Shown here one piece after another: positions 187 to 16,591 of a stretch of 21,227 nucleotides of DNA. Source of the DNA: Chromera velia (taxonomy: Eukaryota > Sar > Chromeraceae); the NCBI GenBank assembly GCA_018398765.1, contig JAHBMJ010002221.1, positions 1 through 21,227 of the forward strand, given 5' to 3'. Below the pieces are notes generated by a model. The model saw only the letters and a program-made list of their open reading frames with translations, searched no databases and had not been told where the DNA came from. Positions within the stretch are counted from its first letter, which is position 1. Each line of letters starts with the position of its first letter. The translations under genes and the position numbers were made by a program.

Positions 187-444
187 GGAAGAAAAAAAGG
201 CGCAGCCTCTTTAATTATCATACAGAGACAGATCGCGTCCTGTTTCGAGCCAGTGAATTTCTGTCCTCTGTCTTTCCGTAGTGGTCGACAACTTCGTTCG
301 CTCTGCACAAATCTTCAGCCAAGGCGCTTTCGCAGAGTCAGAGTGGTAAGTCATTCACGCAAGCTCTGTCCCTCTTTGACTGGCCTGAGCGGCATTCAAG
401 CTTTGTTGGTTCAGATCTATGTATAGTTCCTTTTCACTCTGAAG
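187..444 (+). other. 5' flank of the CBM20/Cys-repeat gene, possible 5'-UTR intron
   Basis: No gene is seen here. A GTAAGT at about 345-350 and a pyrimidine-led TTCAG near 410-414 could bound a short intron in the 5' untranslated region, which would place the ATG at 445 about 30 bases into the next exon. No TATA-like element or other promoter motif stands out. Confidence 0.2.
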
Positions 445-2589
445 ATGGCAGCGTTTGTTCTCCCGACTGCCCCTTCTTCCTTTGTGCAGCTGCGTAGACG
501 GGTGTGTCGGAGTGTCTCTACTTTCATCGATCGTTTGTGGAGTGAAGGCGAAGGCGTTAGTCGATCTGCACATTTCGGCACAATGAAGGGAGGAATTGCC
601 TTTGTCGCGTTTTGCCCCGAGGTGCGAGAGAATCAACGCGTTATTGTTGTGGGAGACTGTCCTGAGTTGGGAGGGTGGGAGCTGGGTGGTGCGGTGTGTA
701 TGAGACCTGCACCGTGTGGGCGTCCGTGGTGGGTGTTGAGTGAGGTGGAGGTGAATCTGTCAGGGTGCACGATGGGTGCCTCTGGAGGTTTAGCGGGTGG
801 TGTGGAGACAGAGAGGGAGGTTGAGAGGGTGAAAGTGTCAGAATTGAAGTTTCGACTGGTTGCGATTCCGAACGCTGGCGATGTAGCTCAACTGCCGGAT
901 TCCCATAAGTTCGTGTGTCTTGAGCCGCTGAGGGGGGGAGACTTCCGCATTGTGCGTTTCGTTGGTGCCCCTCCTCCTGCTGACTGCTCTTCGGCGGGAG
1001 AGAGGGGTGACAATACAATCCGTGTCGGTGAAGGAGGGGGAGGAGAGCAGCAGCAGCAGAGGTCAGAGGTGGTTGGGATTGCAGTGGAATGGGGAGTCCC
1101 TGAGAGTGTGCAGCTCGCACTGCTCCCTCGTTCCACGAACGCACAGTCGGAACATTCACAGAGAGAAACTGTCAATGAGCACAGTTGTCTGTCTGTCCCT
1201 CAGTCAGAGAGTGCGTGCGTGACTTCTTCAGATGGGGTCGGAGAGGGGGAGTCAGAAATGTTCGGAAGCACCGATGACACCTTAGCCGTCTCTGTTTCCT
1301 CTTCTCAGTCAGCTGTTGAGGTCAGAGGGTGCGACAGTCAGAGGGGAATGGGTGGGGGCGACTACAGGGGGGGAGAGTCAGGGAGACAGAACCAGCGGGA
1401 GAAGGAGAGTGAGAAGAATTCGGATTGTTCCGAGACAGTCGCTGATATTGTGACTGACAACAGAATCCTTCCCTCCCACCTTTCGTCCTCCACCCATCTG
1501 TCTTCCCATGACTGTACCCTCACTCAGAGACAACAAGAAGAGGGGCAGCAGACGAGGGGGCTTCCCTTGAAGCGTCGTCGGTCTGAGATTGCCGTCTCTC
1601 AGGTCGAGGCTGACGTGTGCGATGGTGTGTCTGGCTGTTGTTCTCACAGAAGGGATATTGCTTCGCGGGGGGGGGGGAGGGATGGGGTTTGCTTGCGGGA
1701 AGAGAAGCAGCGTCGGTTGAGTGTGTCTGTAACAGCTTCGGACTCTGCCCCTCTCTCTTCCAAAGCTGAGGGAGCGAGGGGGGGGGCGATTGCTGGAGAG
1801 AAAGAGGTCGTCTGTGAGAATCGTCGTTGGGGGGGCAGAGAAGGGGAAGAGGTGAAGAGGAACCGCCATGGGCAGATCGTCTGCTTGCATGGGCGGGTTC
1901 GCTCGCAGTGCAAGGAGTGCGGAGGGCGGAGCATTTGTGAGCATGGCCGCATCCGCTCTCGGTGCAAGGAGTGCGGAGGGGGGGGCATTTGTGAGCACGG
2001 TCGCATCCGCTCTCGGTGCAAGGAGTGTGGAGGTAGTGGCATTTGTGAGCACGGCCGGAAGCGCTCGCAGTGCAAGGAGTGTGGAGGGAAGAGTATTTGT
2101 GAGCACGGTAGACGGCGCTCGCAGTGCAAGGAGTGCGGCGGGAGCAGCTTCTGCGAGCACGGCCGACGGCGCTCTCTGTGCAAGGAGTGTGGAGGGAAGA
2201 GTATTTGTGAGCACGGCCGTCATCGTAGTCAATGCAAAGAGTGCGGAGGGGCGAACATCTGTGAGCACGGCCGGCAGCGGTGCAAGTGCAAGGAGTGTGG
2301 AGGAAAGAGTATCTGTGAGCACGGTCGGGAGCGCTACTCCTGCAAGGAGTGTGGAGGAAAGAGTATTTGTGAGCACGGCCGGAAGCGCCCTCAGTGCAAG
2401 GAGTGCGGAGGGGCGAGCATCTGTGAGCACGGCCGCGTGCGGAACAAGTGCAAGGCGTGTGGAGGAAAGAGTATCTGTGAGCACGGCCGGTATCGCTACT
2501 ACTGCAAAGAGTGTGGAGGGAATGGAATCTGTGCCCACAAGAAGGAACGGCGATATTGTCGCGAGTGCAATGCACATCCTGCTTCGTGA
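445..2589 (+). CDS. CBM20 starch-binding domain protein with 13 tandem Cys/His (C-x-H-x6-C-x2-C) repeats
   Basis: Single uninterrupted frame of 714 residues. Residues about 50-172 read as a CBM20 carbohydrate-binding module: a first strand (IAFVAF), then VIVVGDCPELGGWEL with the hallmark Gly-x-x-x-Glu-Leu-Gly-x-Trp pattern (W78), tryptophans at 95-96, and ELKFRLV matching the usual EYKF strand. A Gly/Glu-rich insert (about 105-131) lengthens the module. Residues about 180-470 are low-complexity, rich in Ser, Glu, Gln and Gly, with one basic patch (LKRRRSE, a possible nuclear signal). Residues 478-711 are 13 units of 18 residues with consensus SICEHGRxRSxCKECGGK; the last (GICAHKKERRYCRECNAH) is degenerate. 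Each unit supplies C, H, C, C, which fits one zinc site. Family knowledge: CBM20 binds starch or glycogen. Binding by this protein and the role of the repeats are inferred. Start at 445 (AAGATGG); M47 (base 583), just before the CBM20, is an alternative. A paralogue may lie beyond the right edge (see repeat copy B). Confidence 0.8.
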   Translation: MAAFVLPTAPSSFVQLRRRVCRSVSTFIDRLWSEGEGVSRSAHFGTMKGGIAFVAFCPEVRENQRVIVVGDCPELGGWELGGAVCMRPAPCGRPWWVLSEVEVNLSGCTMGASGGLAGGVETEREVERVKVSELKFRLVAIPNAGDVAQLPDSHKFVCLEPLRGGDFRIVRFVGAPPPADCSSAGERGDNTIRVGEGGGGEQQQQRSEVVGIAVEWGVPESVQLALLPRSTNAQSEHSQRETVNEHSCLSVPQSESACVTSSDGVGEGESEMFGSTDDTLAVSVSSSQSAVEVRGCDSQRGMGGGDYRGGESGRQNQREKESEKNSDCSETVADIVTDNRILPSHLSSSTHLSSHDCTLTQRQQEEGQQTRGLPLKRRRSEIAVSQVEADVCDGVSGCCSHRRDIASRGGGRDGVCLREEKQRRLSVSVTASDSAPLSSKAEGARGGAIAGEKEVVCENRRWGGREGEEVKRNRHGQIVCLHGRVRSQCKECGGRSICEHGRIRSRCKECGGGGICEHGRIRSRCKECGGSGICEHGRKRSQCKECGGKSICEHGRRRSQCKECGGSSFCEHGRRRSLCKECGGKSICEHGRHRSQCKECGGANICEHGRQRCKCKECGGKSICEHGRERYSCKECGGKSICEHGRKRPQCKECGGASICEHGRVRNKCKACGGKSICEHGRYRYYCKECGGNGICAHKKERRYCRECNAHPAS
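1876..2577 (+). repeat. 54-bp in-frame tandem repeat array (13 units) encoding Cys/His units
   Basis: Thirteen consecutive 54-bp units code for the 18-residue C-x-H-x6-C-x2-C motif. Variation is concentrated at the residue between the two Arg of GRxR and at the two or three before CKEC, while Cys and His are kept in all units (the first is CLH, the last CAH). Many units differ at synonymous sites (GGAGGG, GGAGGA, GGCGGG), so the array is not a fresh expansion. Its periodicity leaves long open frames on the opposite strand, which are artefacts. Confidence 0.9.
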
Positions 2590-2639
2590 TTTCTCCCTAC
2601 GCATATTTTCTCATCCTGCATCCCCGCAGCATGTCTTCT

Positions 2640-3345
2640 CTGGCAACAGTCTCTTTCCACTGTCATTCATCTTTCTCTGTATGCTCTGCCTATCTGTGTA
2701 CAAGCTCTGGGTGGATGTTTGCGTTGGTGGTCTTTCGATCGGTAGAGACTTTTTGTATGGTGCATGCGGAGAGGCGTGTTGTGATGCCGCCACCTAGAGG
2801 GAACTCCATGAATGAAAAAAGATTTGAGAATCGCTCTTTGGAATGGAATGGGAGGGGAGGGGAGGTTGCAGAATCGATTTCATGCGTCCATACACAATTA
2901 AGTGGCAGTCCTCGTAGTGACGGGTACCCATGCACAAAGAAGCTCAACGCATGTGTCTGTCTTCGACCTCATACGTGACGAAGCCTCGCATGACTGTCGT
3001 GCAGGTTCACGACCGACTGCAGGGAAGGTTTTGCTCCATCGCTCACGTGCGTGGTTGTGGTAGGCAGGGACAGAGTCTTTTCTTTTTGTAATGGTGGGCC
3101 TGAGTTTGGTTTTGTTTTCAGACCGGGGGATGCAGTCTTCCCTCTTTTTCGCTCGTTCGTCCACATTTCATTTCCGGCTCCGTAACAACAATCAAGATAG
3201 AGCACTGGACAAAAAAAAGTTTGAGGAAAGGGGGAAAGAGGCAGTGAGGTACTGTCGTACCTTCACAAGGACAGTGTAAATATTCGCCCAGAAGTTCACG
3301 TGAATTAAGTCTCGGTGGCAATTAAGTCATAAGGAGAGACTGTAT
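2640..3345 (+). repeat. inverted repeat copy A, in the 3' flank of the CBM20 gene
   Basis: This non-coding stretch begins about 50 bp after the stop of the CBM20 gene. It aligns by eye, in the opposite orientation and in the same order, with 20465-21115. Anchors: GAAGCCTCGCATGA at 2980-2993 (reverse of 20776-20789); AAGTGGCAGTCC at 2900-2911 (20857-20868); TAAATATT(C/T)GC(C/T)CAGAAG at 3277-3294 (20513-20530); AAGTCTCG at 3307-3314 (20498-20505); AAGGAGAGA at 3331-3339 (20473-20481). The last two anchors lie 33 bp end to end in both copies. Between anchors many substitutions and indels are visible. No long open frame is shared, so a duplicated UTR or flank, or an old mobile element, is more likely than a coding repeat. 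Confidence 0.75.
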
Positions 3346-4240
3346 GCACAGATGCCATTGAGGCTGGGAGGCGGGAGGGTCTTGTGGCGGGACGCTACAA
3401 CAGAGAAAGAAGCAGGTAAGGACGCTTTTTTCGTCCACTCTGAGACTTACGTCTTTCTCCTGAAGTTTTTAGACGGCGAAGAGCAGGGAGGTGCATACAG
3501 ATGCTTGGAGGCATGGGGAAGGAAGAGAGTGGATTCGTGTTGGATCGATCGAAGGGGGTGGCGAAAATTCATTTTTGCTCGTCGATCAAATGCCGACTGC
3601 ACGTTCTGGCAGTGGTCACTTCATGCTTTCTTTTGTTGCACCAGTTTACCTTCTTTGAGGTACCCTGCCTTCTTTCCTTTTTCCTATTTGCCTGCCTGCA
3701 TTTCCGTCTTCGTCTCTCTTTGATTGTTTTTGTAACGGCTCCCGCAGTATTGATGGATGACATTTTCTCTGCTGTTCTCTTTCCTTTCGGTTCCCCTTTC
3801 TCGCCCCCTGATTCGTTCGTCAACTTGTTTAATTCAGTCTCCCCCCCTTGCCACCCATATCTTCCTCCGCCATTGCATATATGCAATGCTCACTTCCCTT
3901 TCCACGTCTTCGCTTTTTGTCACGGTAGTTCTTCCCCGTCTCGATTGTTTGTTTGCAGACAACAGGTGATCTGTCCCTTAATTCTTTCACCTTTGCTTCC
4001 CTCCATAGTCTTGTTGATTTCCCCCCCCCTCTATCCCTTCTACTTTATCAGTCTCTCCTTTCCATCCATCTCTAGATCCATCTTTCCACTCTGGCTTTGA
4101 CTACCTCTTTTTCTAACAGCTTACATGTCTTGTTTCATCGGTTGGGCAGTCACGGTAGCGCGCGCGCGTGTGTTCGTGCATGTGTGTTTGTGTATGAATG
4201 TTAATTGCACGATTTTGGCCGGGGAAGGCTAGAAGAGAGC
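3346..4240. other. pyrimidine-rich intergenic stretch, no gene seen
   Basis: From about 3640 to 4130 the + strand is dominated by T and C (many CTTTC, TTCCC and CCTTT runs). Open frames here are Phe/Ser/Leu/Pro-rich products of that composition and are not supported as genes. A short CG/TG alternating stretch lies at about 4157-4175. Confidence 0.5.
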
Positions 4241-4990
4241 GGGGTTTAGAAGACAAAAAACGGATAAAACTCATAGAAACATGTGTTCATGAATCATAAT
4301 ATTGTTTTTGTCATTGCATTGAGCCTGCAATGTCAAAATCATGCGGCGCTGCGGCGGGCACTCGAGTGGGCTGCGGGCACTAAGGTGCTATCACTCTTAT
4401 ACAACAGTGACATTAATATAGATCGGGTATTAGATCCTAACGCATCCTGTATAGCGTAGATCTAGGCGTGGAATCCGTGGATCCTATAATATCCTATATA
4501 ACATAGATAATAGTATAATTAAAATGTATTAAAATGTAATAGCTGGATACGGAACTAGATTGTAGATTTTTAATTAAGTTTCAAAATTGAATTTGTAGTC
4601 TAGATTAGTCTAGATATATATAGAAAATGTTTTGTATATTGTTATACATAACCTTAGTAGTACATAGGACTAGAATCATTATTTTGTTTTCAGTTTTTAT
4701 TGCTGGTACATGCACGTAGAGTTATACGTCAATGGAGCACGGGGAGTCTTAAAACCTAGCTTAAAACTTGAATATACAATCTTATCCTATCCTATCATCC
4801 CAACAAAAATTATTTGTATCTAGATTTGTATCACAATTAAAGTTGAATTAAACGCTAGCCTACGTTATAACCTAGACGCTAGCACAAACGATGAATGTAG
4901 CGAATGTGTACCTAGATACTATTTAGATTTAAAGTTTTATAATGGTGCTTCACTGCATGTTGATTCATTGCTGAACCAGCTTGATGAATG
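4241..4990. other. A+T-rich island 1
   Basis: Base composition changes sharply. The stretch is clearly A+T-rich, with recurrent CTAG, TAGAT and ATCCTA words, and stops in all frames. It resembles the second A+T-rich island (19711-20460) in character, although I could not align the two. Candidates are a decayed mobile element, an organelle-derived insertion, or a matrix-attachment-like region. Nothing coding is seen. Confidence 0.5.
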
Positions 4991-5365
4991 CAATTTTATG
5001 TAACCAACCCCTGGCCTAGCTGCACCCTCTCCTCATGCAGATCTTCATAGCGCCCAAATCGCGGACCGAACAACCTAAAAGCCGGCCACGAGGCACGCCT
5101 GAATTGCAGCCTCAGTAAAGCTCCCTTCCCAAGCGACAAGCGAACCCCCCATCTCCCGATGCACACGCTCGATGCATGGAATGTCCCCAAAAGGTCAAGT
5201 AAGCAAGCCATGAATTCGACGTACCGAAGTAAATAAAATTACTCAATTGACGGCCATACACACACGGGCCGACATTGAGAAAATCTCCCTTGATCGATCG
5301 ATCAATCGACCGACCCAAAATACATGCACCCCAACCCTCTGCCCCGAATCACCAGGCCCTCACTC

Positions 5366-5436
<71 letters not shown>

Positions 5437-7666
5437 GCAGACAATACATGCATCCATGGACGGATGGATGGATACAGCTGGTCATCATGGACGAAACAAA
5501 AATGCAACAATCAACAACACGAAAGCAAAGAATTAAGGAAGCGATCATGCACTCACGCACGCTAGATGTCGGACGGGGGCGAGATGAGATGAAGCCGTGG
5601 GTTCTCTCTTCATTCATTCACTGGGTGCTCCAGTTTGATAGCAATTGTAATGCAGGAACAGTCAGCATGGGTGGGTCTCTGTCATCTCGATCTGCCTGCT
5701 GCGTCGACCATCCTCCCTTCACTTGTCTTTCTGTTCGTTCATCCCCTGACAGGACCTTCCTCCCTTCCCGGCCTGGCTACGCCGGAAAAATTCTGCTCTC
5801 TCTCTTCTATCTCTCCGGCCGTCTATAGACCCTTCCACGTTGCAAGCCGTTTCCCTTCCTCGTCAAAGGACGGCGATTTCATTCGGACAGGCGGAGAGAG
5901 TGAGTGACCAGGAGGGAGCACACTCAAGAAAGTCCGGAAGAGGAAAATAAAAAGAACGCTGAGTTCAATTCTCCCCTCCTCTCTCCTAAGGAAGAGGGAA
6001 ACACAAAGAAAGGAATCATTAATGCACGGTAGTTTTCTCTCTCCTCTATTTGACATTCACAGCTCAGTAAGCCCGGGTCCCCCCCGACCTTGCTTCTTCC
6101 TTTCCTTCCCTTTCGAAGTCTTCATTCAGAGTCTCTCTTTCTTCTCTTCTCTTCTCCACTTGACCTGACCTGACCCCCACCACAGTTGAGGCAGAGGGAC
6201 AGGAAGCCCGCAACAGCCCCCTCCCCTATCCGCCTGACTGAAAGACAAAGACGGACAGACACATGCACGCACAGGAAGGCAGGCAGAAGCGGGCGCACCC
6301 CACACCCCTCCATGCACCCACTCTGCCCTTCTTCTGAGAGGTCTGCATGTCTCTCCAATCCCTCCCTCCCTCCTTTTTTGCAAACACTCGTGCTGCAGAC
6401 ATGCATGCAGTCATCGACACCCGTCGATTCTTCCGGCAGCTGTTACATGTCTGAGGAAGGTTCTTGCTCCCCTGAGCACGCGGGGCAAGACGCGGAAACC
6501 CCCTCGTGGTTCGTTCGTATTTCCTCCCAACATCTGAGACGAGACACGCGCGCGCTCGAGAGAACGAGAACGATTGCGCGCATGACGGAAGAAGGCGACC
6601 TAAAACAAGGTCTCTTGGATCTTTTGTGTGGAAGGAGCAACGAGAAAAAGGACTTCTTCTGCCACCCATTCTGGGGGTTTTATTGCACTGTATTGAGTGC
6701 TCCCCCGACACTCAGGGTCTCATAAGGAGGTCACAAAACGGGGGACGGAAGTGCAGAACAGACGAAACTGAAGAGTTTTAAGCAGTCAGGCAGACAGGCG
6801 AACAGAGAGAGCGGAAGAATAAAAACAACCAAAGAAAGGTGACACAGACAAAGACAAAGGAAGGCTCCAGATGCCCTTCATAATTCACCCTCAGGGCACC
6901 TTGTCTGCTCCCTTTCCTCCCTGCTCTCTGTTCTCCCTCCCGTCCTATCGGTATTCCGTCGAAAATTCGAGTCCTCTCTACCCCTCGGTTTCTTTGTTTG
7001 CCCGACAGACGAAGGCAATCCATATCCCTCTCCCCTTCCACTCTTCCCGCTTTCCAGAGAGACTGAAGATCCATTGCAAATAAAAAAAAATAAACAGCGC
7101 TATGCGAAAAGGAGGAACGAAAAAGCGCGGGAAGAAGAAAAAAAAAACGCAGAACAGGCAAGTTGGCGGTTTGACATTCTGGCGGGTCGCCTAGAGAGAA
7201 CGACAGAAAGAACAGCGGTTTAAAAAACGAAGGCGAAATAATCACAGAAAACAAATACAAAGGGGAAGCCAGAGAGAAGCAGTTGTTCACTGGAGTGAGA
7301 AGAAAGAGGGAGATCAAGATCTCTCTCTCACGCGACACGTGGGGATGCCATAATTACCCTCTTCACCCATACTTGTCACCCGGCATCCTACCACAGGCAT
7401 AGTAGGATTACTTTGAGGAATCGTCCCTTGCTCAGACGAAAAAGAGCAGAGAGAGACAAACAGACAGAGAGACCAAGAGAACCAACCCGGCTTGTTTGTT
7501 TCCCACACATAGGTACACCCATCCGCCGCCCGTCCCATGCATGAATGAATTTGAAAGCTCCCTTTGTACACTTGTTCACTTATTCACTCATCGATTCAGC
7601 AGATGCACACGCATTCACTATACAGGCAAGCGAGTAATCTGACAAACGTCAGAAGAAGAGCATGTG
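4991..7666. other. intergenic region downstream of the kinase gene, no supported gene
   Basis: This stretch lies between A+T-rich island 1 and the kinase stop codon. It contains a CA microsatellite, GATCGATC repeats (about 5290-5310), purine/pyrimidine-rich tracts and scattered CATGCA words. Open frames at 4996-5211 (-) and 6186-6725 (+) are short, have no family resemblance, and the second lacks an ATG at its 5' end. The 3' untranslated region of the kinase should lie just left of 7667, but no clear polyadenylation signal was identified. Confidence 0.4.
5367..5438. repeat. (AC)n dinucleotide microsatellite
   Basis: Long AC repeat with small interruptions (AAACACAT at about 5397-5404) and a trailing ACGCACGC. 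It is intergenic. Confidence 0.95.
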
Positions 7667-8085
7667 CTAGCGATTTCCCTCCCCACCCCCCCCTCCCGGA
7701 TTTGAGTTTGGACCCCCCCCCACGGCCCCGGGCCGCATCGCTAAAGGCGGAGGCATCGAGTACGGTTTCTGAATACAGGAACCCGATTTTCCTGGACTCC
7801 CCCCATCCCCCCCCTTTCCTGCCGGGGGCGACACAGGCTTCGATACAGCGTTGCCCCCCGCCCCCGAATTGGCGGAAACGTCCCTTTCCGCAACCCCGGG
7901 GCTCTTCAACCTAGAAGGGCTGGAGCCTTTGGATGACGCTGTTGCCTCTCCACGGAGACGGACCGACAAGGGTGGAGCGAAAGGTTTGTCGTCAGAGAGG
8001 CCGAGGGTGAGGGCCTCCGCCCTCTGTCTGTGAGGGAGCCGCAGAGACGCACGGGCCTCCCAGGGCGGCTTCTCTAATTGCGCGT
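7667..8085 (-). other. probable last exon of the kinase gene (C-terminal tail)
   Basis: On the - strand, the acceptor GTTCTTGCAG precedes two bases (AC) that complete the codon left by the exon 4 end, giving Asp. The frame then stays open for 138 codons to TAG at 7669-7667. The first 60 residues have a natural mix ([20 protein letters not shown]); the rest is Gly/Pro/Ser-rich. An opposite-strand frame is also open here, but it requires frame changes at poly-C runs. Two other - strand acceptors, ending near 8887 and 8831 in the same phase, would give very short tails and are the main alternatives. Confidence 0.6.
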
Positions 8086-8478
8086 CTGCAAGAACGCAGT
8101 CAGGCGGTAGATCATCAAGTCAGGGAGCAAGAAGGAATATCAGGGCGTGGAGAATCAAGATGTATTAACACCCAATAAATATTTGCCTCATATGTCAACT
8201 CCTCTGTAGCAGGCATGAAGGAATACAGTTTGCACCATGAAAGAAGACTACCTACACTCCGTGAGTGAGTGATGACGATCAGTCCAATTTTCCGACTTCA
8301 GACAAAGCACACGCACGTGAATGCATGAAAGGAGTTCAGACACAAGACAGAAAAGAAAAAGGTGGGAAAGAAGAAGACAGTCCAAAGTTCCATCCAGTCC
8401 GCAAATATTTCTCTCGATGCCAATGTTTGATGCAGAGGCGCGCGCAGACACACGAACCCACCCACCCCCACACACACG

Positions 8479-8521
<43 letters not shown>

Positions 8522-8564
8522 ACACACACACACACACACGCGCGCGCGCACACACACACGCACG

Positions 8565-8609
<45 letters not shown>

Positions 8610-9034
8610 AGGAGGGGGGGAGAGAGAGAGAGAGAGAGAGAGGTATGTAAAAAGGGGATTCAAGGTTGAATGAAGTGACACGACAAGTCGTCACTCACGT
8701 AGAATCCAAAGCACTCTTCCGTCCATCAGACTCCTGACGACTCACACATCCCCCATTTCATTCAGCGCGCTCCCCCCCGGCCCGCATTCTATCGAAACAG
8801 TGACTGACTCTCGCACCCACCCACAGACTGCACATCTGGTTTCTTCCCCTCCTCTTCTTCATGAACACAACAGACAGGCACACTGACTGACTGCTTGACA
8901 GACAGACAGACTATATGTTTCTTCTTCTCCCTTCTTTTCTTCATGAACACAATAGACAAAAAGAAAGAAAGCAACAAAGACAAAAGACCATCACGACAAC
9001 TCAGACAAAGTGGGCAGGGGGTCCGAAAGGAGAG

Positions 9035-9077
<43 letters not shown>

Positions 9078-10912
9078 GAGACAAGACCGACCTTCAAACC
9101 ATGGATGTGAGAAGACTTCATCCAGACTAATTCGCTCTTGCGGGTCCGAGGTCATCATTCTCTTCATCAGGTCAAGGAGGGCGTCCGAGATCAGAGACCG
9201 CTTGTCCCACTTCTGCAGAAGAGGCTCTATCGAGTACTTCTGAATAAACGCAAAGCGCTCGTCGGTCGCTGTGGCCTGTTGCCACGGAGGCGCTGCAGGC
9301 AGGCAGGTAGGTAGGCAGAACACAATGCAACGCGACTTCCATCGGTGCAGAGGTTTCTCGTCTCTTCTTGATCAACCAAGAGCACAGCAGAAGAAGAAAG
9401 AGTGAAAGAGGAGCGAAGGAAAGAAAGAAAAACGAAAACCACACAAGTATCACAGTAGGCAAAGAGAACAAGCAAATGGGCTGCAAGAAAAAGAGCGGAT
9501 GCAAGAAAAAGAAGGGAAGACACGAAGGAAGACCACACGAATGGATTCATCAGAATATCATATCCAGCCCTGTATTGAGAACCACCTCCCGCTTCCGCTG
9601 TCCTTGGAACTCCCCCCCCCCNCCCGTCCTTCTCTTCTGATTCCACACAGAAAACAAGAAAGAAAAAGGCAAAGCAGCCAAGGAAGAAAAGAGAAGGAAG
9701 AAAAGGGTAACTGTAACTGACTTCCCAAAACCATGATGAACATCATCACCCCGCAAGCGAAGATGTCCACAGGTCTGCCGAGATAGTCCCCCTGATACAT
9801 CTCGGGCGCCCGATAATAACTCTTGCCTGCCCTCCCCGTAATTCTCTTTTCCCTCCCTGTCTGCTTGTCAAACAGCTGTGCGGCTTGACCGAAATCGACA
9901 ACTCGGATGGTGTCGTCGGAATGCAACAACGTGTTCTCAAGCGAAATGTCTCTATGGATGATTCCGTTGGCATGCATGGATTTCACAGCTCGCAAGACTT
10001 GGTGCATATAATACTTGGTTTTCGCTTCGGAAAACCGTTTTTGCGTTATAACCTCATTGAACAGCTCCCCCTGTTCCGCAAATTCGGTCACAAAGTACGT
10101 GTACGTCTTGTCCCTGTAACAGTCCAGCATGCGCACAATGAATTCAGATCTCACAACGAAAGTGAGGAATTTGGAAACACCAATCTCGTTCATCGCATTC
10201 TCCAGCTGTTGGGGACCCGACAGTTTCACATTCTCATTCGCCATGCGTTTCACAACGACAGGCTTCCGAGAAGGGATGTGCTCCTGCAGGCAGGCATTCA
10301 TGGAAAGACCAGGAGGCAAAGTGTGAATGCGAAAGTGCTACTGGGGAAGGACTAACGAGAAAGATGTCCTCGAACGAATGTGCTTAAAATAAAGGAAGAA
10401 CGCAGCCACCGGTGGGATTCTCAAGGAGGAAACAGAGGAGACGGCGTTCTTCTTGAGCACGACCGAAACCAACGGTTCAATGCTGCTCCATATCTCTCAC
10501 TGTGACCCACAGACTCAAACAATCTCACCCATAAGAACTGACCATTAAGTACACCTTCCCATGAATCGCGTTTGCTGCAAGGTTGGCAGGGGAGCGCACA
10601 AACGATGATAGGAAGGTCGGCAAAAGCACTAACAACAGAAGGACAGCTTCTGTAACAAGTAGAAGGCAAGACAACCTCTACCTCCAGACCTGACTTACCG
10701 AGCTGCTTGATCTCCCGAAAATCTTCTTCAGGCCATGAAAGAAAGTTCACATACATCGCAAATTCCCATGGGTGCCGTAATCCGACCGGCACTCGCCCCG
10801 CCGTTGCCTCCAGCTCCTCCTTGGGAGGGCGCCTCTTTCTGTACCACGACGCCAACTCACTCTCCGGAGGGGCGACCTCCGGATAGTCAGGGTAATTTCC
10901 CTGGGGCGTCAT
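7667..10912 (-). CDS. protein kinase, serine/threonine type, five exons, about 475 residues
   Basis: Spliced model on the - strand: exons 10912-10699, 10574-10543 (32 nt), 10283-9722, 9292-9092 and 8085-7667. Phases close throughout, and an in-frame TAA lies just upstream of the ATG. The N-terminal region (1-66) is acidic and Pro-rich. The kinase domain runs about 67-333: VYL after the glycine loop; VVVK (K94) for ATP; likely helix-C E115; HRDISLEN (D194, N199); DFG (D212-G214); APE (241-243); [17 protein letters not shown] across the exon 3/4 join; and the [17 protein letters not shown] end. The tail (337-475) begins [15 protein letters not shown] and becomes Gly/Pro/Ser-rich. Oddities: the loop reads ANAIHG instead of GxGxxG, and HRDIS lacks the usual Lys. 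Family: eukaryotic protein kinase, closest in feel to CAMK-like protist kinases; the substrate is unknown. Exons 1, 3 and 4 are secure, exon 2 probable, exon 5 likely. Confidence 0.8.
8468..8643. repeat. compound microsatellite: (CA)n with CG interruptions, then (GA)n
   Basis: About 140 bp of CA repeats interrupted by CGCGCGCG and CACGCACG units, followed by GGGGGGAGAGAGAG. The alternating purine-pyrimidine stretch with CG steps is the type that can adopt Z-DNA. It lies within the large kinase intron and would appear in the pre-mRNA as GU repeats. Confidence 0.95.
9031..9084. repeat. (GACA)n tetranucleotide repeat
   Basis: Runs of GACA/CAGA on the + strand, immediately inside the donor end of kinase intron 4. 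On the kinase strand it reads TGTC repeats, so unspliced reading gives a spurious Ser-Val-Cys-Leu tail. Confidence 0.9.
9622..9622. other. ambiguous base (N) in a poly-C run
   Basis: A single N in a C homopolymer in kinase intron 3 (9293-9721). It does not affect the predicted protein but shows that homopolymer lengths in this assembly are uncertain. Confidence 0.95.
10543..10574 (-). other. 32-nt kinase microexon encoding the glycine-rich loop
   Basis: It is flanked on the - strand by the acceptor CAACCTTGCAG and the donor GTCAGT. With one base from exon 1 it encodes [11 protein letters not shown], which joins IKQL (exon 1) to [14 protein letters not shown] (exon 3). The loop-to-Lys spacing is then exactly that of protein kinases, and both junction phases fit. 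Skipping it shifts the frame. A nearby alternative donor at the exon 1 end would add three residues but spoil the canonical loop length. Confidence 0.65.
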
Positions 10913-11742: not shown

Positions 11743-11974
11743 ATGTTTGTGACCATGTTGCAGCGTGTTTTTGTAGTGTTTTATCTTTTGCATGTATGTG
11801 TGAACATCCAGTCGGCTGCGGGCTTTCGCTTACCTCTATTCCAGTCAGTAGGTAGTCTCTTCAAAATCCTCTCCCTTTCTCGCACTCCCGCTCCCCCGTA
11901 AACCTCGTCTATTCCCTATCGTGCAGGAGGATAAGAGACCCCGTACAACCAGGATCAGACCGACTTCGGCAAAG
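11743..11974 (+). other. PSY leader exons 1 and 2 (signal peptide plus transit-like segment)
   Basis: Exon 1 (11743-11847) encodes 35 residues: [20 protein letters not shown], then [15 protein letters not shown]. Cleavage near SAA would leave Phe close to the new N terminus, the known mark of transit peptides in red-lineage complex plastids. It ends at donor GTAGGT in phase 0. The proposed exon 2 (11927-11974) follows acceptor TCGTGCAG, encodes [16 protein letters not shown], and ends at a weak donor (GTTGCG). Direct splicing of exon 1 to exon 3 also keeps the frame, so exon 2 may be absent or alternative. Confidence 0.6.
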
Positions 11975-14900
11975 GTTGCGGAGGCAGAGTGCCTCTCCTT
12001 TGCATGCATTTTCCGTTGAGGTGCGTCGTTATGGTTATTCACCGTCTCCGACCAAAAAGTTTTGCCTGGAGTCCATCTTCTGAAATTATCTACCCTTTCT
12101 GACGCCTCGTCGTCTCCCCTCCCCTCTAATATGGATGCAGGAGATCGCCGAAAAGTTTCAAGAGCAGTTCTCACCAGTCTTTGACTTTGACCGTCTCGAC
12201 CACCCAAGCGCACTTGCGGCTGCACGATGGGAAACCCCGCCTTTGGATTTTGATGACCATGATGTGGAAGAACTGCGGGCCTCCTGGGTGCCCCCTTCTC
12301 CCTTGAGTGCACTGGAGGAGAGGGGAGAGGCAGTGCTCCCAGGCACAGAGGGAGAGGGAGTAGATGGATCCGCTACAGCGTCTTCTTCTTTGCGGAGCCA
12401 AAACAGGAAAAAGGAGCTTTTGGTTTCAGAGGAGCAGAAAAAGGTGCAGCTTGCAAAGGTGAGCTGAAGAGAGCGACAGCCTGGGGGGGGGGGAAGAAGG
12501 GGCACATTGAAGTGCGGCTGGCTGGCTGGCTGACTTCGACCGACAGGTTTTATGACCATCTCTATTTCTCTCTTTCCCTCTCTCGTCCCTCCCTCCCTCC
12601 CTCTGAGTGTTTGTGTATCTCTGCTCTCTCTTTGTGTGTCCACCAGAGGAGCTTCTTTCGTGTCAAGGCCTGCCTCATTTTTCTGTCTTGTGCTACTTCT
12701 GTGTGTGCAGGCGTATGAAACTTGTAGACAGTTGACCCAGATCTACTCAAAGACTTTCTACTTAGGAACGCAACTGATGGACAAAGAGACTGCCAAAGCG
12801 ATGTGGGCCATTTACGTTTGGTGCCGGTAAGTCAGCAGCGGGAACTGGATGTGTGTGGTTCTTGTTGCTTGCTTCCTTGCGTCATTCCGTTTTCCTTTGC
12901 TCGTTCCCTGTTTTAATTAATCTCTCCTGGCTGTCTTTAGAGTCTCATCCTTTCCTCTGTGAGTCGATGTGTTGGTTCACCACCCCCTTGCTTGTCTTCT
13001 GCTGTTCCATTCCTTCAGGCGGACGGACGATCTTGTGGATTCCCCCCGAGCTTTGATCACAAAACGGTCAGTGAGTGAGGTGCTTAGTCTGGTGCATTTT
13101 TTCAGTATCTCGGTCGGACACAGAGACAGACAGACAGAGAGACAGACAGACAGACAGGGAGACAGATAGACAGAGAGACAGACAGACAGACCGACAGACC
13201 GACAGAGAGACAGACAGACAGACAGACAGAGAGACAGACAGACAGAGAGACAGACAGACAGACAGACCGACAGACCGACAGACAGACTCACAGACGCGAA
13301 CAGACAGACTCACAGACGCGAACAGATAGACTCACAGACGCAAACAGACAGACAGACAGAGTGACAGACGCACGCCTGCCCTTCCTGAGACGGTGTAGGA
13401 GGACTGGAAGCCGATGGACGAAAAGAGGGGGAGCGCCGTCAGTACGTCGTGGGGGGACCCAGATCTCGTGCTCGGCTTGGTGGGGTGATTGGTTGCTGCA
13501 GGGAGGGGCAGACAGAGGAGGAAGAAGCTTAAAACAAGCACATTTTCGGTGTTTTTGCTCCAACCCACCTTCGATTTCTTGCCTGCATTCCTGCACGAAG
13601 ATGGCCAGGCACACACACACACACTTCTGAGTGTGGTTGTGTTGTTTGTGTGCAGGACTCATCTGTACGATCAGATGATGCTCTGGGAAGAGAGGCTCCG
13701 TCTGATTTTTGAAGAAGGCTACGCGGTGGATGACTTGGACCTGGCGTTGGTCGACACCGTCAAGAGGTTGGTGGTCTGTCTGTTCTGTCGCGTGTGTGAG
13801 AGAGGGAGAGGGCGTGACAGGGAGTTTATCTGTCTTGCTCTGGCTGCTTATTTTGCCTCGGCATTCGCGTTCTTTCTCCCCGGTGTACTGATACATTGTA
13901 TCTGAAGGAGCTAGGGACGTAGGAGAGGATGCAGACCGCTCTCTTGTCTGTCAGTGCACGCGCCTGACACCCACCTTCAATTGACGCGATGCACTCTTTC
14001 TTTCTTTCAGCCACTCGACATAGGGAAATCAAAGATGGGAGGGAAAGCGGGCGTCTTTGTTCTACATATTCTTCTCTCCCGTGTTTTTTTTCAATGCACA
14101 ACCCCACTTTCTCTGCCCCTAATTTCTTTCTCTGTGTGGTTGGGTGGTTGCGTTTTGTACCTGCAGGTTTCCGGGGCTTCAGATCCACCCGTTTGAGGAG
14201 ATGATCCAGGGGATGCTCATGGATCTCAACACCTTCAGATACCAGTCAGTAAGTCTGTTTGAAAGTTGATCGCAGGAGCGCATGCATGAAGGGGACTTGG
14301 CGAACGTGACTGTAGGAGATGTAGCCGTTTTGGGGGGTCTTCTTCTGTCTTTTTATAGGAATCGCGTGCTGCTTTTTTCATTCTCGTCTTCAGTCGACGC
14401 ACCAGATTTCCAGTAAAGGACCAATCTTCTGTTCTCTGTCTGTCGTTTGATTCCCTTCGAGTCTTTCGAGGAGCCACACGTTGTGCTTCCTTTAAAAGAT
14501 GTGTGCATGTGGAAACGCATGCATGTATATATAAAGCGAAAAAGCCTGTCTGTCCTCCTGCTTCTCTCTCTGCAGGACATTCGAGGAGCTGTATGTCTAC
14601 TGCTACCGAGTTGCTGGCACAGTAGGCCTGAAGGTCCTCCCTGTCCTGGGAACTGCAGGGGGGGTCTCCGTGGAAGAGGCGGCGGGACCGGGGGTGGATC
14701 TGGGCATTGCGTTTCAATTGACAAATATTCTTCGGTCAGTCAATTCGTCAAACCGGGGGTGGATCTGGGCATTGCGTTTCAATTGACAAATATTCTTCGG
14801 TCAGTCAATTCGTCAAACCGGGGGTGGATCTGGGCATTGCGTTTCAATTGACAAATATTCTTCGGTCAGTCAATTCGTCAAACCGGGGGTGGACCTGGGC

Positions 14901-16591
14901 ATTGCGTTTCAATTGACAAATATTCTTCGGTCAGTCAATTCGTCAATTCACTCATTCTGAGTCTGATTTATTTTTTTCCTTTCGTCTCCCTCCCCGGCAT
15001 CCTTTTTCTCCCTCCACATCTACTTGCGGGGCGCCCCCTTCTTTTTTTTGTGACAGAGTTTTTCCTTTTTTTCTGGTTTGCGTGCGTGCGTGTGTGTCTG
15101 ATGGACCGACATAGTTTTGTTCACGCCCTTCCTTCCCCTGACTCGCTGAGTGCAGTGATGTGGGTGAGGATGCGGACCGTGGTCGCATCTACCTCCCTCT
15201 CGATGACCTGAAGAGGTTCGGCGTCTCCGAGCAAGACATCTTCAAGAAGAGAGTCACGCCGGGCTACAAAGCCCTCGTGAAGGAGTACATTAGAAAGGTG
15301 AGTGCGTGGGTGGGAGGCTTGAGAACAAATGCGCACTGACCAGCTGGACAAAAGGAGACGGAAGAGAGAGACGGCAGCGAGAGCGAGAGTGAAAGGCAGG
15401 CATAGTGGCAAGGCGTGGCGGACGGGAGAAAGTAGAAGAGGGGAGAGGCGAGACATACCCATATTGGAGGGGGAGAGGCTTGAGGAGGGAGACAGGACCA
15501 CCGAGACACATGAAAAGTAAGGGTTGCGTCCGGTGCATGTGTTTGCGCCGTACGATCCGATTTATTCCAGGGACACTGCCGCTCACCGGTGGCGCTTGCT
15601 GGTTTTTCCGTGGAGTTTTCAATCATTCGTTTTTTGTCCTTCGTCTTCAGCCCCTGTTTCTTTCTGTCTCTCTCTTTTTTTGGTTGCAGGCACGGGCTTA
15701 CTATGCCAGTGCAGAGAGGGGAGTCCGACTTCTCTCTCCGAAGGCGCGATTCCCAATTAGGGCCTCTCTGGACTCATACAGACGGTAGGTCGGTCGGTTT
15801 GTTTGTTTGTTGACGTGTTGCTGTACTATTTCTCTCTTGCTATATCCCTTCCGCCCACGGTTTTCTCTTACCATTGATATTGACTTTTCATTGGCTCCTG
15901 TGCGTGTTTCTCCTTTCGTCTTCTTTCCCTCACTCAGATGTTCGGATCGTTGGCTCGGCGTCTCTTCCGCCTTTGCGTCATTTCTTATCTGTGTGTTGAC
16001 GCTTGCCGCGGTCTGGGTGCTTGTGTCATCTTTCCGCCTGCTTTTCACGTTCCCCCTGAAGCCAGATAGATGATGTCTTTCTTCTTCTCTCACCTCGTCT
16101 TTTCTCTTTTCGTCGGGCGCTCTTTCTTCAAAAGAGCGCGTGCAGGGGTCGCTTTGGTTCCTTTCTCTGGTAGGCATTGCTGTTGCATTCCAGCACATAT
16201 GAAAGGACCCCTTTTTTTGGAGAGCAACAGCAGGCATGTAATTTCGTGGGACGTCTCTTTGTCCTGCAAATGCTATTAAAGGACCTCATTGCCTTCCTGT
16301 GTGTCTGCCTGCCTCCCTGCCTGCTGCTGCAGAATTTTGGACAAAATCGAGCAGAACGGCTACGACAACTTGCGTAGTCGTGCCTACGCAACCAAGCTGG
16401 AGAAGTTGAGTGGTGTGCCCGCAGCATGGATGGCAGCTCAGGAGCCGCCCCAGTTGGGCGACAGGGTACCCCGGTCGATTCTTTCGCGGTTCTCGGATAT
16501 TACTGCGCATGCGTTGCCGCGTCCTCCAATTTTTAGCGACGTTCCGTTCCACATGGCGGCGGATAACCGCAGTTTTTCCGGAGCCGTGTGA
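11743..16591 (+). CDS. PSY: phytoene synthase (PSY/CrtB family), plastid-targeted, 11 exons, about 492 residues
   Basis: Joins two geranylgeranyl diphosphates to phytoene, the entry step of carotenoid synthesis, in the plastid. Exons: 11743-11847, 11927-11974, 12141-12458, 12711-12826, 13019-13066, 13656-13766, 14167-14244, 14576-14734, 15156-15297, 15690-15784, 16333-16591; all phases close. Residues 1-26 form a signal peptide (hydrophobic [12 protein letters not shown]), followed by GFRLP and a basic, Ser/Thr/Arg segment (36-51), a bipartite plastid leader. Residues 52-157 are an acidic linker. The catalytic part starts at about 158: [12 protein letters not shown], the first Asp motif RRTDDLVD (D199-D203), [16 protein letters not shown] (250-265), [18 protein letters not shown], and the second Asp motif [14 protein letters not shown] (D329-D333). 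Both DxxxD motifs are intact, so it should be active. The start has TAA in frame just upstream; ATG at 11755 is also possible. Exon 8 ends inside a 65-bp tandem repeat. Exons 3-11 are firm; exon 1 is likely and exon 2 tentative. Confidence 0.93.
13119..13365. repeat. (GACA)n tract in PSY intron 5
   Basis: About 250 bp of GACA/CAGA repeats with GAGA and CCGA variants, ending in a higher-order unit (GACTCACAGACGCGAACA, two near-identical copies plus variants at about 13284-13350). It sits between the DDLVD exon and the THLYDQMM exon. Confidence 0.9.
14688..14946 (+). repeat. 65-bp tandem repeat x4 spanning the end of PSY exon 8 and its splice donor
   Basis: Units start at 14688, 14753, 14818 and 14883 with an exact 65-bp period. 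Each contains the last 47 bases of exon 8 (encoding [16 protein letters not shown]) followed by the donor GTCAGT and 12 more intron bases. Copies 1-3 are identical; copy 4 has one T-to-C change at 14894, which would be synonymous (Asp). Potential donors are at 14735, 14800, 14865 and 14930. Only the first gives a full-length protein, because the next units add TGA at 14784-14786. Confidence 0.95.

Follow-up and report, generated by a model that had tools for sequence, protein, structure and literature searches.

A probably recent four-copy tandem array bearing identical splice donors across the exon 8/intron 8 boundary of a predicted phytoene synthase gene in Chromera velia

Introduction

Tandem duplication of sequence that carries splice signals has been described in several systems, which we cite here from excerpts of the articles concerned. 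A new intron of the potato RdRp gene came about when a segment spanning an intron-exon boundary was duplicated in tandem (PMC4974935), and the same article cites Rogers-type intron gain via duplication of an exonic AGGT as well as fission yeast genes with a multi-copy 24-bp unit. Novel introns in Drosophila have been ascribed to tandem duplication of coding sequence with a proto-splice site (PMC2891723). Tandem alternative 5' splice sites of the GYNNGY type place several usable donors at one exon end (PMC2423196, PMC4267661), and an intronic variable number tandem repeat of ABCA7 lies near exons and could shift splicing (PMC5954066). In a human reporter library with two tandem donors that both match the consensus, the first was predominantly used, and acceptors showed no order preference (PMC6783452). 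Pre-mRNA with duplicated sites that carries one or two U1 is mentioned in PMC8724738, the excerpt of which does not say which site is used. Here we describe a four-copy, 65-bp tandem array that repeats a splice donor at the end of exon 8 of a phytoene synthase (PSY) gene of Chromera velia, and which is probably a minisatellite of recent origin that affects the enzyme little. The gene lies on a stretch of 21,227 nucleotides (forward strand of contig JAHBMJ010002221.1, assembly GCA_018398765.1) that is the whole contig C2210 and is called the window below; genome searches covered the 177.8-Mb assembly of 4040 contigs.

The PSY array resembles the potato RdRp duplication in being a short, recent and local duplication of coding bases together with a splice site, within a gene. 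The potato case, however, concerns the acceptor side and one duplication for which a new intron is reported, whereas the PSY array concerns the donor side, has four copies, is known from sequence alone and, unlike the potato duplication, has a unit without a strong acceptor. With the Rogers-type and fission yeast cases it shares a multi-copy tandem duplication bearing splice signals, but it contains no AGGT, part of its unit is real intron sequence, and the protein is not restored by GT-to-AG removal. Like GYNNGY sites it offers several predicted usable donors at one exon end; those donors are a few bases apart, whereas the PSY array repeats whole 65-base units with coding sequence, and its donors are identical in both flanks. 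As judged from its predicted donors the array is built like tandem alternative donors, while the class 'alternative splicing' would need transcripts. The designed human reporter likewise sets equal donors in a row, of which the first is favoured in the reporter, but it has two designed donors in human cells, whereas the PSY array has four natural ones whose use is predicted only. The ABCA7 repeat, too, is a repeat near exons that could shift splicing; in contrast to it, the PSY unit itself holds a splice donor and coding bases. We did not meet a multi-copy donor-straddling array in the open-licence literature searched, in which no search was aimed at PSY splicing, and novelty is not established by this.

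Results

Tandem Repeats Finder placed the array at 14687-14946, with exactly 4.0 copies of the 65-bp unit, 99% matches and 0 indels over a total length of 260 bp, and a second repeat search concurred. The initial annotation had begun the array at 14688 and counted 47 coding bases per unit; its four 65-bp copies are real in the assembly, while the start lies one base earlier, which is a matter of register, the coding part being 47 bases if the unit begins at 14688 and 48 if it begins at 14687. Copies 1-3 are identical and copy 4 carries a single change, T>C at 14894, which is synonymous in the PSY frame (GAT>GAC). A chance origin of the array is out of question, and the identity of three copies suggests that the expansion is recent, as had been proposed. 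A DNA search of the 178-Mb assembly, in which very common words were skipped, found the unit nowhere else, all 4 matches lying in this array. The array straddles the exon 8/intron 8 boundary of the PSY gene and is composed as follows.

14687-14946 (+), 65-bp tandem array, 4.0 copies, over the exon 8/intron 8 boundary (repeat finding, copy comparison)
14687-14751 (+), array copy 1, which holds the true end of exon 8 (copy comparison, gene model)
14752-14816 (+), array copy 2, identical to copy 1 (copy comparison)
14817-14881 (+), array copy 3, identical to copy 1 (copy comparison)
14882-14946 (+), array copy 4, with T>C at 14894 (copy comparison)

The exon chain of the host gene is predicted, having been read from splice motifs and frame, and is supported by frame and homology.

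11743-16591 (+), phytoene synthase gene, 11 exons, 506 residues (splice motifs and frame; PF00494; structure alignments)

In this model the exons lie at 11743-11843, 11927-12020, 12141-12458, 12711-12826, 13019-13066 and 13656-13766 (exons 1-6) and at 14167-14244, 14576-14734, 15156-15297, 15690-15784 and 16333-16591 (exons 7-11). The product matches PF00494 (SQS_PSY) with an E-value of 9.5e-73 over residues 183-443 and profile positions 4-262 of 263, and its best solved relatives are CrtM (8is6, E 7.9e-42) and a phytoene synthase (5iys, E 6.7e-32). The 8is6 and 5iys alignments cover the two Asp-rich motifs, DDLVD and DVGED, which we take to be the catalytic ones. The least certain part of the model is that before residue 183, outside the Pfam match. 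Read by eye, the protein begins with a hydrophobic N-terminus followed by AAGF, a putative presequence that suggests a complex-plastid alga, plastid import and enzyme activity being predicted only. All ten introns of the model start with GT and end with AG, and their lengths range from 83 to 589 nt. GTCAGT stands at four of the ten PSY donors, so that the array repeats a donor of a type usual in this gene. Three other PSY donors have a second GT four bases on (11844-11853, GTCAGTAGGT; 13067-13076, GTCAGTGAGT; 14245-14254, GTCAGTAAGT), which amounts to tandem donors spaced by four bases, and in the model the first GT alone keeps the frame at each of them.

A PF00494 search of the assembly yielded four places on two contigs, two of them in the PSY gene and two on contig C696 that we read as squalene synthase. 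Because of this reading of the C696 places, the PSY gene should have to work, and the idea that a second PSY copy relaxes the constraint on it was rejected as far as this search reaches. No second PSY gene was found in the assembly by this exon-by-exon search, which caught two of the 11 exons of the present gene and which a divergent copy could escape; the gene looks like the only PSY gene.

The donor context, TTCG at the exon end followed by GTCAGTCAAT, is the same in all four copies, and the sites that determine the predicted products are these.

14735-14740 (+), donor 1, GTCAGT, giving the full 506-residue enzyme (model, scoring)
14800-14805 (+), donor 2, identical, giving an early stop (model, scoring)
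14865-14870 (+), donor 3, identical, giving an early stop (model, scoring)
14930-14935 (+), donor 4, identical, giving an early stop (model, scoring)
14784-14786 (+), TGA in frame with donors 2-4 or with intron retention, 358-residue product (model)
15154-15155 (+), AG of the shared intron 8 acceptor, with exon 9 from 15156 (model; scoring)

Each site was scored against the other nine PSY donors, so that the matrix consists of nine sites only. The array donors reach 8.6 bits each, the leave-one-out range of the ten PSY donors being 4.6-11.4, and the next best GT within 14660-15160 reaches 2.7 bits. The four GTCAGT donors, initially described as equivalent, are indeed the same in sequence and equal in score, and the end of exon 8 has more than one donor-grade GT, as tandem alternative 5' splice sites do. 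From donors 1, 2, 3 and 4, intron 8 would measure 421, 356, 291 and 226 nt, respectively, the last three lengths obtained by subtraction. Messages from donors 2, 3 and 4 would be longer by 65, 130 and 195 nt, and each would stop at the TGA at 14784-14786 after 358 residues, as would a message that fully retains intron 8. The 11-exon model thus bears out the single early stop that had been assigned to donors 2-4, as well as the loss of the second DxxxD motif, the stop falling before DVGED; the length of the truncated product, first estimated at about 344 residues, was off by 14. The 358-residue product comprises 342 native and 16 new residues and keeps DDLVD. Moreover, three exon junctions, 8/9 and the two after it, lie downstream of the TGA, as they do for the early stop of a splicing-coupled decay switch.

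The acceptor of intron 8 has the lowest score of the ten PSY acceptors (-0.5, leave-one-out), the other nine ranging from 6.0 to 16.0. Another AG lies upstream of it (15037-15056), in a GACAG that ends at 15056 and scores 5.5 bits. An RNA structure that hides donors 2-4 was considered and rejected: the fold of 14640-15010 is weaker than that of shuffled sequences (z +1.31), 95 of 100 shuffles folding at least as well. By eye, a 7-base inverted pair, AATTGAC and GTCAATT, stands round each donor, in a region that is not special in the fold test.

Tandem arrays elsewhere in the genome were sampled in 200 kb, made up of 20 places taken by contig number and including 4287 N. Tandem Repeats Finder reported 56 rows with a period of 20-250, of which 13 had a period of 30-250 and at least 90% matches; five of these 13 lie in one locus (L014) and four have at least three copies. 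On these counts, arrays of this size are common in the genome. Splice junctions were surveyed in 20 kinase loci (from 136 matches) and 16 DEAD-helicase loci (from 37 matches), together 48 kb of 178 Mb, which were picked for split or partial domain hits and are hence intron-rich. A complexity filter was applied that removes some intronic duplications and is thereby biased towards junctions; the PSY array, at 0.59, lies slightly below its threshold. For genes other than PSY, we located junctions by eye, guided by AG/GT and the continuity of the protein. After filtering, eight local duplications remained in six of the 36 loci, and three of the eight clearly straddle a splice junction, all of them acceptors. 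We list these together with a weak donor-side case; the helicases of L052 and L064 are presumed to be DHH1-like and eIF4A-like, respectively.

L042, 1-207, kinase gene, acceptor junction duplication, 71-base copies 137 apart (read by eye)
L052, 41-124, presumed DHH1-like helicase gene, acceptor junction duplication, 41-base tandem pair (read by eye)
L064, minus strand, presumed eIF4A-like helicase gene, acceptor junction duplication, 25-base copies round a 47-nt filler
L055, 939-988, minus strand, helicase gene, weak donor-side junction duplication, 22 bases at 91%, partly simple repeat

Of the other four duplications, two are repeats that lie in introns of L052, and two, in L049 and L058, are simple-sequence-rich stretches. 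A further case is the gene at 409-7741 of locus L014 (G000:C401:5001-15000), which matches SPT5 KOW families (PF23042, E 9.8e-9; PF23284, E 9.3e-11) in two of the three pieces tested, the third piece being without a match. This SPT5-like gene holds eight junction sequences in two or three copies, six acceptor-side and two donor-side, some of the copies being set apart by AT-rich or simple-sequence filler, and three of the eight duplicated junctions lie outside the family-matching pieces. The AG is gone from the middle copy of one three-copy case, the duplicated stretch of another acceptor case extends only about 1 base into the exon, and further duplications in the locus consist of intronic or exon pieces only. 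As we read these cases, it is the outermost copy, that is the first donor or the last acceptor, that joins the rest of the exon. An enrichment of duplications at splice junctions is suggested by a survey that is small, partly chosen and filtered in favour of junctions.

The filler of L064 has a core in common with an array in locus L012 and, by eye, resembles pieces of L014. With at most one mismatch, GAAAAAGAATTNTGTATGAAAAT occurs at 433 places in the assembly (235 + 198); the reversed pattern occurs at 0. The AT-rich element is flanked by direct copies of host sequence in L064, and in L012, at 2943-3222, it is amplified in tandem together with host sequence. Eight loci (L065-L072) were cut out from the GAAAAAGAATTNTGTATGAAAAT matches; L067 and L068, on the other strand, were left out of the flank check, and L069-L072 are one array, namely that of L012. 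No flanking repeat of at least 12 bases was found at the L066 element, nor at the L065 element, where there is a 12-of-14 similarity. Only a few cases therefore link filler and duplication, and L065 and L066, the two other places with a single copy, give no clear sign of such a link. The copies of the PSY array are without filler.

The window contains several further features. A 720-codon open frame, counted from stop to stop, occupies 427-2589 (+) and ends in 12 Cys/His repeats of 18 residues; these lie at 1900-2522, are of the type RSQCKECGGKSICEHGRK and have a DNA period of 54 bp. A protein kinase gene adjoins PSY on the opposite strand, at 9096-10277 (-), with Pkinase matches at E 3.2e-38 and 4.3e-5. 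Long AGAC and CA/AC simple repeats are present at 13124-13369 (in a PSY intron), 9031-9083, 5367-5436 and 8469-8606.

Discussion

In our view the array is probably a recent 65-bp minisatellite over the exon 8/intron 8 boundary that is spliced mainly at donor 1 and has little effect on the enzyme. The base before the array (14686, G) does not match the last base of copy 1 (14751, A), and the base after it (14947, T) does not match the first base of copy 4 (14882, A). Because the array ends with the unit on both sides, there is no leftover homology at the breakpoints. The first duplication may have formed without any such homology, as when a staggered break is repaired by end joining, and would then have expanded to four copies by slippage or unequal exchange. 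Young minisatellites are often changed in an outermost copy, as this one is in copy 4. Since donor 1 alone gives the conserved enzyme and no second PSY was found, we infer that it must be used at least often. Transcripts would be spliced mainly at this donor, which is made first and stands at the authentic exon end, and would encode the normal enzyme. Donors 2-4 would give at most minor transcripts, all of which stop at one TGA and probably decay, since the stop precedes three later junctions. The array would thus be neutral or nearly so for the enzyme. According to the initial annotation, the spliceosome must pick, among identical sites, the one farthest upstream. This calls for no special mechanism: the first of two equal donors was predominant in the human reporter library, as excerpted (PMC6783452), which makes donor 1 the expected default.

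Several points weigh against this reading. The preference for the first donor comes from human cells and from two donors, and the excerpted article itself mentions earlier conflicting evidence (PMC6783452). The introns that would start at the four donors (226-421 nt) are all ordinary for PSY, so that length does not exclude donors 2-4. Older experiments with duplicated donors often favour the intron-proximal site. Moreover, three identical copies could also mean homogenisation of an older array, and the use of donor 1 is predicted from sequence.

Among the other explanations, it is rather unlikely that the organism has another copy number, perhaps one or two, and that the four copies come from the assembly. 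At 260 bp the array is longer than many short reads; weaker signs in the same direction, which would suit an assembly with gaps, are the N runs in four of the 20 sampled stretches (1, 75, 2049 and 2162 bases) and a single N in a C run at 9622 of the PSY contig. However, copy 4 differs from copies 1-3, so that at least two copies are required if the change is not itself an error; arrays of a similar kind are found across the genome, and pure repeats are more often collapsed than expanded in assembly.

Unlikely, too, is a splicing rheostat in which the donor ladder steers transcripts to the early stop in a regulated proportion, and in which repeat number or the level of a splicing factor, responding for example to light, tunes the output. 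Phytoene synthase is generally held to control carotenoid flux, and four donors of equal score with one shared early stop make such a switch possible. Yet there is no structural or strength difference by which a regulator could tell the copies apart, and similar duplications in unrelated genes of the same genome argue for mutation rather than design. The earlier suggestion that splice-site choice tunes enzyme output is thus unsupported, given equal donors (8.6 bits) and no unusual fold (z +1.31).

We consider it very unlikely that the intron-proximal donors win, with the functional transcript in the minority and the gene a partial loss-of-function allele. That all four introns are of normal length for PSY speaks for it, as does the frequent use of the downstream site in classic duplicated-donor experiments. 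On the other side, this gene, the only PSY gene that the search detected, appears intact, and a preference for the first donor was measured in human cells, according to the excerpt (PMC6783452).

Most improbable of all is a new intron in the making, which would run from the GT of copy 1 to the AG within the GGTCAG of copy 2 or copy 3. The two variants, 14735-14804 (70 nt, followed by use of donor 3) and 14735-14869 (followed by donor 4), would each add 60 nt in frame and thus 20 residues without a stop, giving a 526-residue protein, while the other two GT-to-AG combinations tried in the array run into stops. The AG scores 0.0, no lower than the weakest PSY acceptor (-0.5, leave-one-out), and the new intron of potato RdRp, made by a tandem duplication over an intron-exon boundary, is a precedent as excerpted (PMC4974935). 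Nevertheless, the other nine PSY acceptors score 6.0 to 16.0, a T at position -5, found in all ten, is absent from this AG, 70 nt is below any PSY intron (83-589), although 135 nt is not, and the insert would fall directly before the second Asp-rich motif. Finally, Rogers-type intron creation was rejected because there is no AGGT in the 260-bp array and GT-to-AG excision adds 20 residues or meets a stop, and insertion of an introner or transposon because the copies abut without filler and the array is exactly 4.0 units long.

The PSY array is a clean natural test of how the spliceosome chooses among four identical donors, set in a gene on which the alga should depend and with a simple read-out of four junctions and one stop. 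Junction-straddling duplications elsewhere make the array less special and the genome more so; it is modest by itself, and the better lead lies behind it. We propose, tentatively and as somewhat short of probable, that the array is one product of a genome-wide process that duplicates exon-intron junctions, sometimes with dispersed AT-rich filler, so that decoy splice sites stand in rows in essential genes and the outermost site is the one that the spliceosome routinely takes. If this is true, the first donor and the last acceptor would be taken, the last acceptor without any first-come advantage, and the genome would offer a natural laboratory in which to study splice-site choice and the onset of intron gain. 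The larger value of the PSY array lies in having drawn attention to a genome where duplications that straddle junctions may be frequent, and such a genome could reveal how splice sites are chosen and introns gained without designed constructs, if RNA shows which of the copies are used.

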